Source: a virus. From it: DNA of 32,033 nt. Of the stretch, positions 1-15,728 are shown one piece after another (the first letter of the stretch is position 1; the number at the start of each line of letters is the position of its first letter). Made by a program: the position numbers and the translations under genes. The stretch is from positions 1-32,033 of the IMG/VR virus record IMGVR_UViG_3300021405_000040; one strand, written 5' to 3'. The notes beneath the pieces are model-generated. The model was not told the DNA's origin. It saw only the letters and a list, made by a program, of their open reading frames with translations, and made no database searches.

Positions 1-1
1 A

Positions 2-457
2 GCGCCGCCAGCGCCGAACGGCGGACCGGCCGACCCCGACGACGTCGAGGGGCTGCGCCGATCGCTCGCCGCCGAGCGCAAGCGGGCCGCCGCCGCCGAA
101 GCCGACCTAACGAAGCTGCGCGCCGCGAACATGACCGACGCCGAGCGGCAGATCGCCGAAGCGCGCGCCGCGGGTAAAGCCGAAGCCGAAACCGCCGCGG
201 CGCTGCGGATCGCCGCCGCCGAATTCCGCGGGCTCGCCGCGGGCCGGATCGCCGACCCCGACGCCGCGATCGAGCTACTCGACCTCGCGAAGTTCGTCAA
301 GGACGGCGAGCCCGACCGCGAAGCCATCGCCGCGGCGATCGAACAGCTCGCCGCCGTGCCCGCCCCGCCGCCGCCGCCCGGCCAGATACCCGCGGGCGCC
401 CGCCAATCGGCCGCGCCCGTATCGGACGACTGGCTGCGCCAGATACGCCGCCGCTAA
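2..457 (+). CDS. Scaffold protein, 5' end missing
   Basis: The frame is open from the left edge, so only the last 151 residues are visible; the first internal ATG is at 131. The protein is Ala/Glu/Arg rich with long charged helices (ERKRAAAAEADL, then DAERQIAEARAAGKAEAE), a short Pro run and a basic C-terminus (WLRQIRRR). Head scaffolding proteins have this coiled-coil composition with a basic capsid-binding tail, and this gene sits just upstream of the major capsid gene. The capsid protein appears to lack an N-terminal delta domain, which fits a separate scaffold. The function is inferred from composition and position; no catalytic motif is seen. Confidence 0.75.
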   Translation, partial: APPAPNGGPADPDDVEGLRRSLAAERKRAAAAEADLTKLRAANMTDAERQIAEARAAGKAEAETAAALRIAAAEFRGLAAGRIADPDAAIELLDLAKFVKDGEPDREAIAAAIEQLAAVPAPPPPPGQIPAGARQSAAPVSDDWLRQIRRR

Positions 458-466
458 CCCGACCCC

Positions 467-477
467 GAAGGGACCAA
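467..477 (+). promoter_or_regulatory. Start-associated sequence GAAGGGACCAA, copy 1
   Basis: This contains a strong Shine-Dalgarno (GAAGGGA) 6 nt before the ATG at 480. The identical 11-mer precedes three other genes in the window, at 19306-19296 (minus), 28583-28593 and 30134-30144. Confidence 0.75.
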
Positions 478-479
478 CC

Positions 480-947
480 ATGATGCGGACCGCCGCGCTC
501 GTCGTCGTGCTCGCGCTGGCGGGATGCACGGGCTCGACCACGATCACGGTAACGCCGACCCCGCTCACGGCGACCGCCCGGCCGAGCCCGCGCCCGGCGC
601 CGCCCGTGCGCTGCGCGTGGTACTCGCCGACCACGGACGGCGGGCAGCAAGTGATCATCAGGGCGACCGGCCCGGCGTGCGGCGACCCGCCCGTAATCGA
701 CTGGATCGCATCGATTACCCGGCGAACGTGGATCACGACCGGATACGAGCCCGCGGCGACCTGTATCGCGCAACTCGCCCGAGCCGGGGCGATCGTGCAA
801 GTGTGGCAGACCGGATTCGCCCCGCGAACCGATCAGGTCGCCGGGCAGATCGCCGACACGCTAGAGCGCGACGGCTGGCTAGTCCAGGTGCCGCCGGGCG
901 GTCCGGGGCCGACCCCGCCGATACTGCCGACGCCGATCGGCGCTTGA
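480..947 (+). CDS. Secreted lipoprotein (possible moron)
   Basis: A 155-residue protein with a short N-terminal hydrophobic segment ending in a lipobox, L-A-G-C, with lipidated Cys16. A Thr/Pro-rich linker (about residues 17-43) follows, then a small domain with Cys45, Cys67 and Cys95. The Pro-rich C-terminus ends PILPTPIGA. It should be exported and anchored in the outer face of the membrane. It interrupts the scaffold-capsid pair, where no lipoprotein is needed for assembly. It has its own strong ribosome site and 194 nt of spacer after it. Phage lipoproteins such as T5 Llp and TP-J34 Ltp block superinfection, so an exclusion or lysogenic-conversion role is plausible but is inference. ATG 480 is followed at once by ATG 483. 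Confidence 0.85.
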   Translation: MMRTAALVVVLALAGCTGSTTITVTPTPLTATARPSPRPAPPVRCAWYSPTTDGGQQVIIRATGPACGDPPVIDWIASITRRTWITTGYEPAATCIAQLARAGAIVQVWQTGFAPRTDQVAGQIADTLERDGWLVQVPPGGPGPTPPILPTPIGA

Positions 948-974
948 TCGGCCGCGCTCGCGGGTTTACTCTGG

Positions 975-1075
975 CCGGGATGCCGCGCGGCGGGATGCGG
1001 CGGCAGCCGGTCGAGCCGAATCCGGGCGCTTTACGCGGCGGGATGCCAAGACCGGGCGCGCGTGCGGCGGGATGC
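975..1075 (+). repeat. GCGGGATGC direct repeats before the capsid gene
   Basis: GCGGCGGGATGC occurs three times (987-998, 1035-1046, 1064-1075), with a partial copy CCGGGATGC at 975-983. The reverse complement of the last nine bases, GCATCCCGC, lies at 1132-1140 against the capsid start. The copies also hold ATG codons in the capsid frame (980, 995, 1043), but the protein they would add is low-complexity and Arg/Gly-rich. Confidence 0.8.
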
Positions 1076-1128
1076 GGCGCGCGGCCGGGGGCGCGGAAAG
1101 CGGCGAGCCATACCGTCTCGCCCCGATC

Positions 1129-1140
1129 GGAGCATCCCGC
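1129..1140 (+). promoter_or_regulatory. Capsid ribosome site with complement to the upstream repeats
   Basis: GGAG (1129-1132) lies 9 nt before ATG 1142. The following GCATCCCGC (1132-1140) can pair perfectly over 9 bp with each of the three upstream GCGGGATGC copies. Confidence 0.6.
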
Positions 1141-1141
1141 A

Positions 1142-2104
1142 ATGCCGCCAGCGCCGCCAGCCTATGACTATTCCGGCGTGATCCCGCGCGAGATGAGCGC
1201 GCAGATCATCGAGGAAGCCGTCGCCAGCTCGACCGTCCTACAGCTCGCCAACCGCGTCCCGATGGGCACGCACATTAACGAGCTGCCGATTCCGAAGACG
1301 CTGCCCAAAGCGGCGTTCGTCAACGCGCCCGGCGGGCGCAAGGCATATACCGAGATGGCGCTAGAGGCGCAGACCCTACGCGCCGAGGAAATCGCCGCCG
1401 TGACCGCGATTCCCGATCAGTATCTCGAAGACGCCGAGATCAACCTATGGAATTGGGTTCGGCCGCGGCTCGCCGAAGCGGTCGGCTATGCGCTGGACGA
1501 CGCCGTCCTATTCGGCATCGGCGCGCCCGGCTCGTATCCGGTCGGCGGCGTGGTATCGAACACGTTTAGCCAAGCGGTCGCGAATGGCACCGACGCCGTC
1601 GACGGCGTCAATCAGGCAATGAGTCTGGTCGAGCGCCAGGGCGTAACCGTGACCGGGCACGGCGCCGATCTCGTCGTCCGCGGCGCGCTGCGCGGCGTGC
1701 GCGATGACACGGGCGCGCTACTGCTCGGCGAGACACAAGTCGATCAGGTTTCGCGGCCGACTATCTACGGTCTGCCCGCCAGCTATCACCCGTGGTCGGT
1801 ACAGGTGCCCGACTTCATTACGGGCGGCTGGCAATTCCTGATCATCGGCGTCCGCCAGGACATCAGATACACGATGGACCCAAACGCCGTGATCGCCGAC
1901 AATAACGGCGCCGTCGTAGTGTCGGGATTCCAAGACAACGTCACGCCGATCAAGATTTGGGCTAGATTCGCGTGCGCAATCGTGCGGCCGGTTACGCCGC
2001 GCGTGACCGCCGGGGCTCGCCCGTTCGCCCGCGCGACCCTCTCGACCCTCGCGCCCGCCGCGGGCGAGGCGCGCGAAGTCGTGACGACCAAGCGCGGCAG
2101 CTAG
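1142..2104 (+). CDS. Major capsid protein (HK97 fold)
   Basis: A 320-residue protein of usual size for an HK97-type capsid without a long delta domain. The N-terminus (MPPAPPAYDYSGVIP, then EMSAQIIEEAVASSTVLQLA) is typical of actinophage capsid proteins of the phage major capsid family. The central part (LRAEEIAAVTAIPDQYLED, then LAEAVGYALDDAVLFG) matches the spine helix and P-domain region, and the GVRQDIRYTMDP segment is typical of the C-terminal A-domain. It should form the icosahedral shell with the upstream scaffold. The start was placed at ATG 1142 because GGAG lies 9 nt upstream and recognisable homology begins there. In-frame ATGs at 980, 995 and 1043 would add a basic extension and are less likely. 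Confidence 0.92.
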   Translation: MPPAPPAYDYSGVIPREMSAQIIEEAVASSTVLQLANRVPMGTHINELPIPKTLPKAAFVNAPGGRKAYTEMALEAQTLRAEEIAAVTAIPDQYLEDAEINLWNWVRPRLAEAVGYALDDAVLFGIGAPGSYPVGGVVSNTFSQAVANGTDAVDGVNQAMSLVERQGVTVTGHGADLVVRGALRGVRDDTGALLLGETQVDQVSRPTIYGLPASYHPWSVQVPDFITGGWQFLIIGVRQDIRYTMDPNAVIADNNGAVVVSGFQDNVTPIKIWARFACAIVRPVTPRVTAGARPFARATLSTLAPAAGEAREVVTTKRGS

Positions 2105-2114
2105 GGCCGGGCCG

Positions 2115-2294
2115 ATGGCCCGACCCGCCGAGACGTGCACCGAATGCCGCGCGCTCGTGGCAGCCGATCAGATGACGGCCCATGTGGCGTGGCATACCGG
2201 GCTATCGAACGCGATCGCGCTCGTCACGACCCGCACGGCGACTAACCACCCGCACGGGCCGGTTACCGCGAGCCGAAGCGGCGGCAAGACGTGA
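2115..2294 (+). CDS. Small C2H2-type zinc-finger protein
   Basis: A 59-residue ORF with CTEC at its N-terminus and HVAWH 11 residues after the second Cys, giving C-x2-C-x11-H-x3-H, close to a classical C2H2 finger. It starts 10 nt after the capsid stop. Its TGA overlaps the GTG of the next gene (GTGA, 2291-2294), which supports real translation by coupling. Small zinc-binding ORFs between capsid and connector genes occur in actinophages, but their function is unknown. No strong Shine-Dalgarno is visible beyond GGCCGGGCCG. Confidence 0.65.
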   Translation: MARPAETCTECRALVAADQMTAHVAWHTGLSNAIALVTTRTATNHPHGPVTASRSGGKT

Positions 2295-2710
2295 CCGACT
2301 GGCAGACGTGGGCGCCGCCGCTCAACCCGCCGACCGCGGGCGGGCTCGACCTCGCCGACGCCGAGCGGATCGCCGCGCTCTACTGGGACGCCGAGCCGCA
2401 CTTGTGCGCGGCGCTGCAATGGGAAAGCTACGCGGCAACGCTGCCGCCGGGCTCGGCCGTCTCGCAGGTCCAAACCGGGATGCAATCGGTTACCTACTCG
2501 CCAGCCATGCCCGGCGGCGACTACGGGCAAGCGATCTCGCGGGCGAACTGGCATCGCTCGTTCGTCTCGACGCTGGTCACGGTCCCGCTCGACCTCGCGC
2601 CGCTCGACCTCGCGGGGATCGAGCCGCCGGGATGGTGGGAAACCGAGCCCGTGACCAGCGGAAACGGGGCGCCCGGCCAGGCCGGGGGCGCCGAAGGGGG
2701 CGCGCCGTGA
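2291..2710 (+). CDS. Head-to-tail adaptor
   Basis: A 139-residue protein starting at a GTG that overlaps the previous stop. It lies directly after the capsid genes, where the gp6/gp15-like adaptor of siphoviruses is found. The segment LADAERIAALYWDAEPHLCA is helix-rich, as in adaptor proteins. The C-terminus is a Gly/Ala linker (NGAPGQAGGAEGGAP) encoded by a dispersed hairpin repeat at 2668-2696, so the tail of this protein looks like a later addition. The role is inferred from position and fold-like composition. Confidence 0.6.
   Translation: MTDWQTWAPPLNPPTAGGLDLADAERIAALYWDAEPHLCAALQWESYAATLPPGSAVSQVQTGMQSVTYSPAMPGGDYGQAISRANWHRSFVSTLVTVPLDLAPLDLAGIEPPGWWETEPVTSGNGAPGQAGGAEGGAP
2668..2696 (+). 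repeat. Dispersed 29-bp hairpin repeat, copy a
   Basis: The core is the odd palindrome CCCGGCCAGGCCGGG (2672-2686), flanked by GGCG and GGCGCC. The same 29 bp recur at 22112-22140 with one mismatch and at 27642-27670 with about three. In each case they encode an APGQA linker. Confidence 0.75.
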
Positions 2711-3069
2711 CCGTGCTGCTCACGCCCGATCCGGTCGAGCTGTTCGCGCCCGGACACATGGACGCGCACGGCTGGCGCTCGCCCGGCGACCTCGCCGCCG
2801 ACTGGCGCGGGCGCGGCTCGCTACAGCTCGTGCAAGCGCCCGGCGACCCGCGCGCGACCGCGGGCGGCGGGCACGGCCCGCACGAGCCGCGCGAGATCGC
2901 CGCCGGGACGCTGTTCCTGCCGACCGAAGCCGAGCCGCGAGCGGGCATGACGGCGATCGTGCGCGGCTCGGCGTTCGTGCTGCTCGGCGTGCGGTACGTG
3001 CCCGATCCGGTCGGGTCCGGGCTCGATTGCTACGCGGCGACCGTGAGCGAGGCGCCCGCCGATGCCTGA
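2707..3069 (+). CDS. Head-closure (stopper) protein
   Basis: A 120-residue protein from GTG 2707 (GTGA overlap with the previous stop). It is beta-rich: AAGTLFLPTEAEPRAGMTAI followed by RGSAFVLLGVRYVPDPVGSG. This resembles the stopper/head-closure family that follows the adaptor in siphovirus gene order. It would seal the portal after packaging and give the tail its docking surface. Assignment is by order, size and beta pattern rather than by a signature residue. Confidence 0.55.
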   Translation: MTVLLTPDPVELFAPGHMDAHGWRSPGDLAADWRGRGSLQLVQAPGDPRATAGGGHGPHEPREIAAGTLFLPTEAEPRAGMTAIVRGSAFVLLGVRYVPDPVGSGLDCYAATVSEAPADA

Positions 3070-10465: not shown

Positions 10466-11365
10466 ATGACAACGCCGACCGGGCGGCTCGCGTGGGCGCA
10501 AGCGCAGACCTACGACGCCGTCGATGACCGGGCAGTGATTACCGCGCTATCGCGCGGCCGGATCGGGCTCGTTAGCCCGCCCGTAGTGTCCGCCGGGTCC
10601 GGGTTGCAATTGATCGTCGGCGGCGGCTGGCTCGGCGTGGCATCATGCGGCGACCGATCGAACGCCGTCGTCGGGGATCGCGTAGACAATACCGTGCAAG
10701 CCAACCCCGGCGGCGGCACGACCAGCCGCGAGGACGTTCTATGGTGCGACACGTACCCGGATGAGGGTTATTGGGAATTGAGCGTTATCACGGTCGCGCA
10801 GGCCGCCGGGCGGTTCGGGCTGCCGATCGCCGGGCTCGTCGTTCCGGCGAACGCCAATCTCGCATCGCAGATGACGATTATCCCGATGGATGCCTCGCTC
10901 GACCGGCGGCTAATGAGTCACTCGATATTTAACGGCGTCGTACAGCCCGGTATGGGCTGGAATTACGGCACATGGGCGCAAGCCGCCCCGGTCAACTGCC
11001 CGAGCCAACCCGTCGTGATGGAACCCGGACAGTGGTATCGGGTCCGCTACTTTGCGCGGAATCCCGATCTGCTACAGGGGCCGAGCTTTATCGGCCGACT
11101 CGGCGTCGGCTATCGCACGGCCGGGCAAGATGTATCGACGTCGATCCTCGCCGCCGAGTCGTGCATCAGTTACGCGGCGATCAACCGCCCGACTAGCGCG
11201 GTCGCCGAATGGGTATTCCGGCACGCCAAGAACGACGCGCGGGTCACGCGGGTATTCGACGGCCGAATGTGGCACGAAGGGAACGGGATTTACCGGATCG
11301 GCTCGCGCACGGGCGGCGGTAATCAGCCGCATCTGACGCTCACGGTCGAGGACGCCGGGTCATGA
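10466..11365 (+). CDS. Minor tail protein
   Basis: A 299-residue protein with a very good ribosome site (GGAAGGGG, 10452-10459). Its N-terminus, with [20 protein letters not shown], is paralogous to that of the next gene (DDRQVITAL in the same place), so both probably dock to the tail in the same way. The remainder is beta-rich ([20 protein letters not shown]) and ends in [11 protein letters not shown]-like strands. A receptor-binding or tip role is inferred from position. The stop overlaps the next ATG. Confidence 0.65.
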
Positions 11366-12915
11366 CGACGCCGGGTCTGCTGCGATGGGGGCAGAGCGGC
11401 CGGTATTCCGCCGCCGATGACCGCCAGGTGATCACGGCGCTCGCCGCGGGCGGAACCGGCGTCGTGCGCGGCGCTGTGATGACCGCGGCCGATGGGCTCG
11501 CGATCATGGTCGACGCCGGATGGCTCGCGCTCGCCGATGCCGAAGACGGCTCGATCGCCGTGCTCGCTTCGCCGGTCGCCGTGCTCGTGCCCGTGCTGCC
11601 CGGCGATCCCGAAGACGACCGGACCGACGAGCTATGGGCCGAAGTTGTCGAGGTCGAGTCGGCGACATTCCGGCTCGCCGTGCTCGCGCCCGACCCCGAC
11701 CGGCACGGCGTGATGCTCGGCGAGGTCGAGATACCGGCGGGCGCCGACTCGGCCGCGGACATGACCCTAACGCCGCGGGCGCCAGACTACGGACCCGGCG
11801 CGCCCGGCCCGCCCGGACCGGCCGGGCCGCAGGGACCGAGCGGCGTTCCGGGTCCGCCCGGCGAGCCCGGCGGACCGCCCGGACCGCAGGGCGACCCCGG
11901 CCCGAGCGGACCGCCCGGCGGGGTCGGCCCCGAAGGACCGGCGGGCGGGCCGGGCGAGACGGGGCCGCAGGGACCGGCGGGCGAGGTCGGCGGACCCGGA
12001 CCGCAGGGACCGGCCGGGCCGACCGGACCGGAAGGGCCGCGCGGACCGCAGGGCGAAGCCGGTCAGACGACGCTGATCGTGGGCACGTTCGGGCAGCAAA
12101 CCGAGCCCGCCGATCTGCCGCCGGGCGGGCTCATTCCGGCGGATTGGGACGGCCCCGGCCGACCGGCGACCGCGACTCAAGTCGAGATCGGATGGAGTCT
12201 CGTTTACGAGCCGAGCGGCGCGCTCTGGACATACGCCGGGGCCGACTGGCCGCAGGGCGAATGGTTTAGCCCGGCCGTCGTGCAAGGTCCGCCCGGTATC
12301 GAGGGACCGCGCGGGCCGCAGGGCGAGCAGGGACCGCCCGGCCCGCAGGGACCGCCGAGCGCGGCGACCGGCACATTCCAATCCGATAGCGGCTCGTTCC
12401 CGGTCGCCGGGTCGGTCACGCAAGCGATCATGGTTACCCGGCTATGGGTCATACCGGCGGGCGAGCTAATACCCGGTAGCTGGTTTGAGGTTCACGCCGT
12501 GGGCTCGGGAACCTGGGCGGGTAGCGGGCTGCTCGTCGCCGGGCAGCGATTCAACGCCGCGCTAACCGATCGGTATATCGACCTCGCCGTAAGCAACTGG
12601 CAGGCAAACGCGCCGTTTGCCGTGGCGCTGCGCTCGTTCTATCAAGTCGTTTCGACGGCGCTCATTCTGCATTGGACCGAAGCGCTCATGTCACCCCGGC
12701 CCGCGCACTCGACGTGGACGGCCGGAAATATGAGTATCGGCGCGGTAAGCCAGATCGATACTTCGGCGGTCACGCCGGGCGCCGACTTGACTGTCGGGCT
12801 CACTGCCCGATGGTCGGCGACCGGCGCGCAGACGATCACATTCCGCGGCTCGCGATTGAGCCGCTTTATCGCTTCGCCAGCCCGCGAAGCGACGACCTAT
12901 GGAGGTAATCAGTAA
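11362..12915 (+). CDS. Collagen-like tail fibre protein 1
   Basis: A 517-residue protein. Residues 1-130 form a docking domain paralogous to the previous gene. About residues 139-232 are Gly-X-Y repeats ([20 protein letters not shown]). About 233-308 form a spacer module ([38 protein letters not shown]). About 309-334 are a second Gly-X-Y run. A beta-rich C-terminal domain ends in [14 protein letters not shown]. The collagen runs should form a trimeric helix. The same spacer module occurs twice in fibre protein 2. The gene ends in TAATG, coupled to the next ORF. Confidence 0.85.
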
Positions 12916-13837: not shown

Positions 13838-14208
13838 CCGCGGCGACCGAAGCGCGGGCGACCTCGCCGCCGGGCGAGGCGCCGCAGGACGTCCCGCTCT
13901 ACGTGTACCGGGGCGACTCGCGCTCGTGGGCATTCCGGCTATGGGTCGACGCCGATGCGACCGAGCCATACGATCTCGCGCAGGTTACGGCGGTCGCCGC
14001 GCAGATCCGCCGCTCGCCCGATGACCGCGCTTCGGTCGATCTGACGTGCGCGATCGTGCTACCCAATTACGTGTTCGCGCATCTGTCCGCCGGGCAATCG
14101 CAGAATACGCCGCCGGGCCGCTGGGATATGCAGCTCTCGTTTCCCGGCGGTCGCGTGCTGACCGTGATCAAGGGCGCCGTAACCGTAGAACCGGACGTGA
14201 CCCGATGA
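13834..14208 (+). CDS. Baseplate-upper-protein-like N-terminal domain protein
   Basis: A 124-residue protein from ATG 13834 (ATGA overlap with the endolysin). [18 protein letters not shown], then a Leu/Ala-rich strand before [15 protein letters not shown], resembles the BppU N-terminal fold that anchors receptor-binding proteins in other siphoviruses. It directly precedes fibre protein 2 and overlaps it by 4 nt, so it may be the adaptor that mounts that fibre. The family call is by pattern only. Confidence 0.5.
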
Positions 14209-15728
14209 GCGAGATAGATGTAACCGTGCCGCGCCCGCCGGGATTCGTGGACGTGATCTCGGGAATGCCGGGCGAGCAGGGACCGCCCGGCCCGCCCGGC
14301 GCGCAGGGACCGGAGGGACCGCCCGGCCCCGGCGGGCAGGCGACGATCATTGTCGGCACGTTCGGCGCGACCCGGACCCCGGCCGAGCTGCCGCCCGATG
14401 GGATGATCCCGGCCGATTGGGACGGGCTCGGGCGCCCGGTCGCCGACACGCAAATACAGCTCGGCTGGTCGCTGATTTTCGACCCGCTCGGCGAGCTGTG
14501 GACGTTCGTGGGCGAGGGGCTCAACCCCGGCGGGCAGCCGTGGATTACGCCCGGCGTCTTGCAATCGCCGCCCGGCCCGCCGGGGCCGAGCGGACCCGCC
14601 GGGCCGCAGGGCGGGCAGGGACCGCCGGGGCCGCAGGGCGCCCGCGGCGAGATGGGGCCGCAGGGCTCGACCGGCTCGCAGGGCATACCGGGCGGGCAGG
14701 GCGCGCGCGGCGAGGCGGGACCGGCCGGGCCGCAGGGCGTGCAAGGTCTGACCGGGCAAACCGGCGTGCAAGGTCCGCCCGGCCAGGATGGCGCCGCGGC
14801 GATCATTGTCGGGCAGTTCGGCGTCACGAAAACGCCGGCCGATCTGCCGCCGACCGGGTATCTGCCCGCCGATTGGGACCGGCCCGGCCAGCCCGCTTAT
14901 CAGTGCCGGATCGGCGATGCTCTGCTCTACCATCGCGACGGCGACCCGCTCGACGGCCAGCTATACGGGTTCGTTTCGCAGGTGAATAACCCGCTCGGAT
15001 GGGTCGATATCGGAACGATTCTCGGCCCGCAGGGGCCGCAGGGACCGCCCGGCCCGGATGGCGCGCCCGGCGTCGACGGGCAGACCGGCCCCGAAGGGCC
15101 GACCGGACCGGCCGGGCCGATCGGGTTTCTCGGCCCGCAGGGACCGACCGGACCGCCCGGCCCGCTCGGCGATCAGGGCGAGCCGGGGCCGCAGGGACCG
15201 ACCGGCGCGGCCGGGCCGACCGGCGCGCGCGGCGCTGACGGCGAGGTAACCCGCGCCGAGCTGGTCGCCGCGCCGTATGGCGTGCCGATCTCGCTCGGCC
15301 CCGGATGGGTCGACGGCAACGTCGCCGGTCCGCCCGAGCCGCCGCTGCGGTTCTACTATCACCGCGGCGTCTGCTGGATTGGCGGCTATATCCAATGGAC
15401 CGGCGGCGGGCTGCCGAACGCCGGAACCGTTATCGGCGCGTGCCCGCTCGGGTTCTACTGCCCGACGTCGATCTACACATGCCCGGCGATCGTGGTCGCG
15501 CCGGGCGGCGGGCGGGTAAGCGCGCAAGTGATGATCGTGCAGGGTTATCAGCTACAGATGTACTCGGCCCCGTCCGACTGGCCGGGGGCGACCTCATTTC
15601 AAGTGCTGTTTCTCGACGCGATCCGGTTCGTTCCGACCAGCGCGCCGCCGTGGCCGCCGACCGGCGAGCGCCGCCGCGAGACTAACCGGCTCGACCCGCT
15701 GCCGCCGCCGTTCCCGCTGCCCGGCTAA
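14205..15728 (+). CDS. Collagen-like tail fibre protein 2
   Basis: A 507-residue protein. A short N-terminus ([16 protein letters not shown]) is followed by three Gly-X-Y runs separated by two copies of the spacer module found in fibre 1 (IVGTFG and IVGQFG starts; [12 protein letters not shown] and [12 protein letters not shown] cores; GWSLIF; LYGFVS). The C-terminal ~160 residues form a globular domain with [20 protein letters not shown] and several Cys, probably the host-contacting tip, ending in a Pro-rich tail. The two fibres and the endolysin are coupled by stop/start overlaps, so they are made together. Confidence 0.85.

Follow-up and report, generated by a model that had tools for sequence, protein, structure and literature searches.

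Three copies of a short repeat stand ahead of the major capsid gene of this virus and their reverse complement lies at the ribosome site of the same gene, which raises the question of whether the repeats regulate capsid synthesis and, if so, whether they act as DNA or RNA and with or without a partner. The window (the whole stretch analysed, an IMG/VR virus record of 32,033 bases) carries genes for scaffold, capsid, tape measure, endolysin and integrase, and the features at the start of the capsid gene are as follows.

1129..1132, + strand: Shine-Dalgarno GGAG of the capsid gene, from the sequence
1132..1140, + strand: anti-repeat GCATCCCGC, between the Shine-Dalgarno and the AUG
1142..2104, + strand: major capsid protein, HK97 fold family (Pfam Phage_capsid, 4.3e-26; PHROG major head protein, 5.6e-38)

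The repeat GCGGGATGC occurs exactly at 990-998, 1038-1046 and 1067-1075, just where the earlier note had placed it, and the reverse complement which that note had singled out as the only one nearby is the sole exact minus-strand copy of the 9-mer in the 32 kb. This copy, at 1132-1140, overlaps the last G of the Shine-Dalgarno and stops one base short of the ATG at 1142. The partial copy reported at 975-983 was also found (CCGGGATGC, one mismatch to GCGGGATGC), but it is outside the repeat array, because it falls on the predicted start of transcription and forms no hairpin. The real shared unit is a 12-mer, GCGGCGGGATGC, which is present three times and nowhere else within the window, and no further repeat array was seen elsewhere in the window. 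When 950-1141 was shuffled with dinucleotide composition kept, some 9-mer occurred three times in 287 of 5,000 shuffles, some 9-mer occurred three times together with its complement in 155 of 5,000, and some 12-mer occurred three times in 15 of 5,000. Compared with such shuffles the repeats and complement of the window alone are only mildly unusual, and the evidence for the reality of the repeats comes from the comparison with relatives.

Some neighbouring genes were recorded as well. Between the scaffold gene and the capsid leader, a lipoprotein-like ORF at 480-947 (signal peptide, LAGC box) shows a weak match to an Rz-like spanin PHROG (E 0.0038). Right after the capsid gene, at 2115-2294, lies a 59-aa ORF with a C2H2-like pattern (CTEC...H...H), which is kept in L005-type relatives and in L041 and missing elsewhere; it was considered as ligand of the leader and rejected, being present in few relatives, and no ligand was found for the leader. 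Long collagen-like GPPGPxG repeats are found in late proteins at 11362-12915 and 14046-15728, probably in the tail region.

The folded leader and its relatives

Ahead of the capsid start, capsid relatives of 58-83% identity share a noncoding stretch that is conserved. Fifty-seven such leaders were aligned by MAFFT without structure and a consensus structure was drawn by hand. Comparison among the leaders shows a fold of ~125 nt, composed of a core hairpin, a long-range helix and three hairpins in which the repeats form apical GNRAY loops. The elements of this fold in the window are listed below.

979..1103, + strand: structured leader RNA, covariance model R1 of 124 positions (91.8 bits, E 8.5e-15; the window sequence is within the training set)
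982..1004, + strand: hairpin H1, helix 1 and apical pairs, with the first repeat copy at 990-998 and loop GGGAU at 992-996
1007..1025, + strand: invariant core hairpin CCGG-loop-CCGG, whose loop contains GCCGAA
1026..1094, + strand: long-range helix P2, GCGC 1026-1029 with GCGC 1091-1094, enclosing H2 and H3
1037..1047, + strand: hairpin H2, GGC-GGGAU-GCC, with the second repeat copy at 1038-1046
1053..1090, + strand: hairpin H3, with the third repeat copy at 1067-1075 and loop GGGAU at 1069-1073
1097..1103, + strand: conserved AAAGCGG, 3' edge of the core, from the leader alignment
1102..1122, + strand: hairpin H4 just upstream of the Shine-Dalgarno, GGCGAG 1102-1107 with CTCGCC 1117-1122

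In the hand-drawn structure 77.3% of the cells of the 57 leaders are paired versus 36-45% when the partners are slid, a control that flatters the structure somewhat since this was drawn with the sequences in view. Changes on both sides were observed in 25 of the 36 pairs, and the covariation score was matched by none of 500 shuffles. All 4 base pairs of P2 exhibit double changes (GC, AU, UA and CG types) with 88.6% paired, and the third pair of H2 is C-G, A-U, G-C or U-A in relatives. Confidence is lowest for the lower stem of H3, with double changes in all 8 pairs, yet only 59% of cells paired. For H4, a stem of at least 6 was found in 54% of 56 leaders vs 15% of shuffles, and with several pair types. 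Taken together, these data make it almost certain that a conserved structured element exists as RNA. The repeats to which the earlier note drew attention thus belong to the capsid leader as conserved parts of an RNA.

The covariance model recovered all 19 held-out relatives (at least 55% capsid identity, with upstream DNA) at 59-113 bits, and gave no match in relatives of 30-33% capsid identity, nor in L200. The latter (capsid 51% identity) has at 2840-2998 a leader of similar length with AGCCGGTCGATACCGAGTCGGC, similar by eye and possibly a diverged homologue missed by the model. Folding of the window region alone, a check proposed earlier, gave no unusual stability (z = +0.77), and the free ensemble of the window RNA was estimated at -103 kcal/mol vs -93 kcal/mol with the apical hairpins enforced. 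The consensus is not preferred by such single-sequence models, which are uninformative at 80% G+C.

Two further observations on the fold can be mentioned. The invariant loop GCCG in 1007-1025 could form a pseudoknot with the invariant CGGC at 1101-1104 after AAAG, a candidate for which invariance gives no covariation. In L042, L057 and L085 the H2 module or its surroundings are shortened or lost while H1, the core and H3 are kept, which suggests modular evolution of the RNA. A coding reading was considered too, as an ORF at 524-2104 spans the leader; it was ruled out by frame-shifting indels and by a capsid frame that is open through the leader in only 8 of 85 cases, and the leader is therefore not an N-terminal extension of the capsid protein.

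The segment 979-1103 of the window belongs to a family of structured RNAs, represented by 85 distinct leaders, directly upstream of an HK97-type major capsid gene. When viral contigs were searched for the DNA core pattern alone, GGCAGCCGGTAGCCGAAYCCGGG, 65 were returned, and a capsid gene of the same family was located downstream in 65/65. A gapped core pattern enlarged the set to 116 places with 85 non-redundant leaders, in which the distance from core to capsid is 95-187 nt. The leader precedes the capsid family in every place examined, and in none of the 116 does a gene intervene; upstream, the neighbour is mostly the scaffold gene, and accessory genes, among them the ORF at 480-947 of the window, are inserted before the promoter and leader, never between leader and capsid. 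The core pattern was absent from the 50,697 cultured phages searched, and in a distant relative, Arthrobacter phage Eileen, the scaffold-capsid gap is only 21 nt.

In genomes the core pattern gave 23 matches, 21 of which look like chance, the same capsid gene not being downstream, and two of which are genuine and belong to metagenome bins labelled Nocardiopsaceae and Streptosporangiales. A host search in ~800 Actinomycetes genomes recovered L105 and L099, the two metagenome-assembled genomes known before it, and nothing else. The hosts probably belong to the Nocardiopsaceae/Streptosporangiales part of the Actinomycetes, since both metagenome bins turn up in the same family sample, and the carriers are many uncultivated soil phages, apparently of Actinomycetes.

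No Rfam 15 family matched the window leader at the gathering score, and nothing was returned for 900-1200 even at E 10; for eight relatives there were just weak matches to unrelated families, far below gathering scores. Like the Rfam families it is a cis-acting bacterial or phage leader, but it matches none of them. Literature searches, whose coverage is incomplete so that the novelty is provisional, gave no report of this leader element. We conclude that the leader RNA is a real cis-acting element, apparently previously undescribed.

Predicted promoter and loop identity

Conservation among the leaders begins at the following element.

944..972, + strand: predicted sigma-70-type promoter (-35 TTGATC at 944-949, 17-nt spacer, -10 TACTCT at 967-972)

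The transcription start predicted from it, near 979, is the first base of the covariance model. A -10 hexamer with [TC]A at the start and usually CT at the end was found in 51 of 56 dereplicated leaders, where A at position 2 and T at position 6 were required by the search and represent no evidence; the evidence lies in the free positions, 1 (T or C in 49) and 5 (C in 46), and in the -35. A TTGAC-like -35 is mostly 18 nt from the -10 (17 nt in the window) and scores higher than all 200 shuffles, while a generic promoter scan did not list 944..972. The conserved promoter would place the RNA at the 5' end of the transcript.

At the repeat positions, relatives have GCGUGAU, GCGCGAU, GCGGGAU or GUGCAAC; in most cases a GNRA-plus-one loop is closed, and other loops occur in a few lineages (L016, L041, L125). 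The second loop base, which is G in the window and U or C in relatives, is identical in H1, H2 and H3 in 40 of the 42 leaders readable at all three (permuted mean 5.1, maximum 14) and in 18 of 20 after dereplication at 65%, with the reservation that the permutation tests ignore shared ancestry. As the aligned leaders show, the three hairpins of a phage share this base and change it jointly. Even phages with capsids ~90% identical can have different bases there, every readable copy being changed, and this speaks against the capsid protein as reader of the loop base. The concerted change may instead be read as one factor contacting all three loops.

A position directly after a promoter is also that of the put RNA of phage HK022, which has ~70 nt and two stem-loops, binds the zinc-binding domain of the polymerase beta-prime subunit and suppresses termination (PMC9378689). 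Both are phage-encoded structured RNAs at the 5' end of a transcript, beside a promoter that in our case is predicted. The nascent leader could accordingly be a factor-independent antitermination RNA that binds RNA polymerase and allows read-through of the long structural operon; it heads a long head-tail operon from immediately downstream of a conserved promoter, the same position from which put RNAs act (PMC9378689). However, the leader is larger, with ~125 nt and at least four helices or stem-loops, has another fold with three concerted GNRAY loops and is linked to the capsid gene. A search of 1-3000 showed no terminator-like sites, and a conserved polymerase target leaves the joint change of three loops between close relatives unexplained. 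We consider this explanation unlikely.

To a similar degree unlikely is a stabiliser of the 5' end of the mRNA, or translation enhancer, which would protect the abundant capsid mRNA and keep the ribosome site open with no specific ligand. Such a role is in line with the start of H1 ~3 nt from the predicted transcription start, with the insulation of the ribosome site by H4 and with the high expression that a capsid needs, but the near-invariant core and the concerted loop bases exceed the needs of a generic stabiliser.

The anti-repeat and probable control of capsid expression

The sequence ATCCC is found at most 22 nt from the AUG in 5 of 12 GGGAY leaders vs 0 of 66 others (Fisher 4e-5, a value inflated by shared ancestry). 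Complementarity between loop and ribosome site was examined by label permutation, since ranking is unsuitable (A is always worst and C-rich spacers generally favour G). In the last 16 nt before the AUG the mean energy advantage of the GGGAY repeat is -6.2 kcal/mol in GGGAY leaders vs -0.6 in the others (inflated by ancestry), and the same test is flat at -40 to -17. A held-out set of eight GGGAY leaders gave an advantage of -4.1 (p = 0.004, or 0.012 without L221, again inflated by ancestry). The exact 9-mer GCATCCCGC precedes the AUG in the window, L004, L048, L077 and L221, and 7 of its 9 bases do so in L066; in L057 (GCGAG type) the AUG is adjoined by GCCTCGCGC, a 9-mer exactly complementary to the L057 repeat itself, in a stretch that can also fold on itself. 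Several GGGAY members (L218, L222 and L166) lack the complement, and C-rich spacers to which a GGGAY loop would be suited are also present in some non-GGGAY leaders. The GUGAU and GCGAU types, i.e. the majority of leaders, keep the hairpins with no tracking complement before the AUG (p = 0.18), and flanking DNA, examined for an anti-repeat acting in trans, showed no enrichment of the own-type complement. The earlier suggestion that the repeats pair with the ribosome site thus has partial support for the GGGAY subtype, which favours the complement, and does not extend to the U and C types, and redundant anti-ribosome-site arms are not the defining feature of the element.

The 9-bp complement between repeat and anti-repeat is worth ~-19 kcal/mol, and enforcing the pairing costs 1.4-7.5 kcal/mol relative to the free ensemble, copies 2 or 3 being within 4 kcal/mol; in these models the paired and unpaired states are both energetically open to the window RNA. 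A pure switch, in which the repeats compete for the anti-repeat and thereby close the ribosome site without any factor, draws on this low cost, on the exact complements in several lineages and on the held-out result, but it is quite improbable in view of the majority types and those GGGAY members that do without a complement. That the repeats are protein-binding DNA sites downstream of the promoter, similar to stoperators, is highly improbable. Short same-orientation concerted copies near a promoter are expected of phage-specific operators, but P2 and the lower stems show covariation that passes through G-U intermediates, a feature for which DNA binding has no need, and the window holds no further array. 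The protein-binding array which the earlier note had offered beside the switch fares better, as the concerted loops suit an array more than a switch, though at the RNA level rather than in DNA and with a bound factor that we infer.

Other arrangements at the ribosome site were seen in single lineages. In L016 and L067 (and the related L018 and L019) H4 pairs GCGCUCC with GGAGCGC, which includes the Shine-Dalgarno, and the ribosome site can be directly sequestered. Before the capsid start of L057, L120 and L126, a Shine-Dalgarno GGAA is in the loop of a CCCC-GGAA-GGGG hairpin.

The reading that we prefer, and to which as a whole we give an even chance, is a cis-acting 5' leader that controls capsid expression via a factor reading the three loops, with self-pairing in the GGGAY subtype. 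Control of capsid expression in cis is in itself very probable, and the reading of the loops by a trans-acting factor is more tentative, somewhat short of evenly balanced. Transcription would start near 979; the leader is noncoding and ends close to the ribosome site of the capsid gene. All three loops would be read by a single trans-acting factor, which is most likely an RNA-binding protein of the phage, and its specificity may differ among phages as that of N for boxB does among lambdoid phages. Binding of the factor would set capsid expression, probably at translation initiation, because the 3' hairpin of the leader lies directly against the ribosome site, which in some relatives is part of that hairpin. 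In the GGGAY subtype, to which the window belongs, the repeat could also pair with 1132-1140 and block initiation, and factor binding and self-pairing would then compete.

The lambdoid nut sites have boxB hairpins that are read by N, with GNRA-like five-base loops that are repeated and of phage-specific identity. The leader likewise has repeated hairpins with GNRA-like five-base loops (GNGAY, GCAAC) of phage-specific identity. Unlike in nut sites, however, the three hairpins are inside one compact folded leader of a late gene, and no unpaired boxA is found beside them; the only stretch that comes near it, CGCUUNAC downstream of the core, bears a weak resemblance to boxA and takes part in P2 pairing. 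The leader can also be compared to autogenous operators, such as the coat operator of RNA phages and ribosomal protein leaders, in having structured RNA at or near the ribosome site of a structural gene (H4 and the anti-repeat), but differs from an autogenous capsid operator in that two phages may carry different loop types even with capsids of 90% identity. With no match in Rfam or in the literature searched, a structured leader of the major capsid gene seems to be undescribed so far in tailed DNA phages.

It is tempting to speculate, although we regard it as doubtful, that the three identical loop letters serve as a recognition code in RNA, specific to each phage and read by a factor that the phage encodes, in which a switch of the letter between close relatives would give exchangeable specificities of late structural gene control, like immunity types, and GGGAY loops would double as antisense arms on the capsid start. 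The leader family provides a concrete testable model, with a promoter, a 125-nt RNA, three co-changing loops and, in one subtype, an antisense arm, and its motif also marks a large group of uncultivated soil phages. Reading of the loop base by a phage-encoded factor, if it occurs, would be a new way to time or dose capsid production, with a control that is private to one phage.
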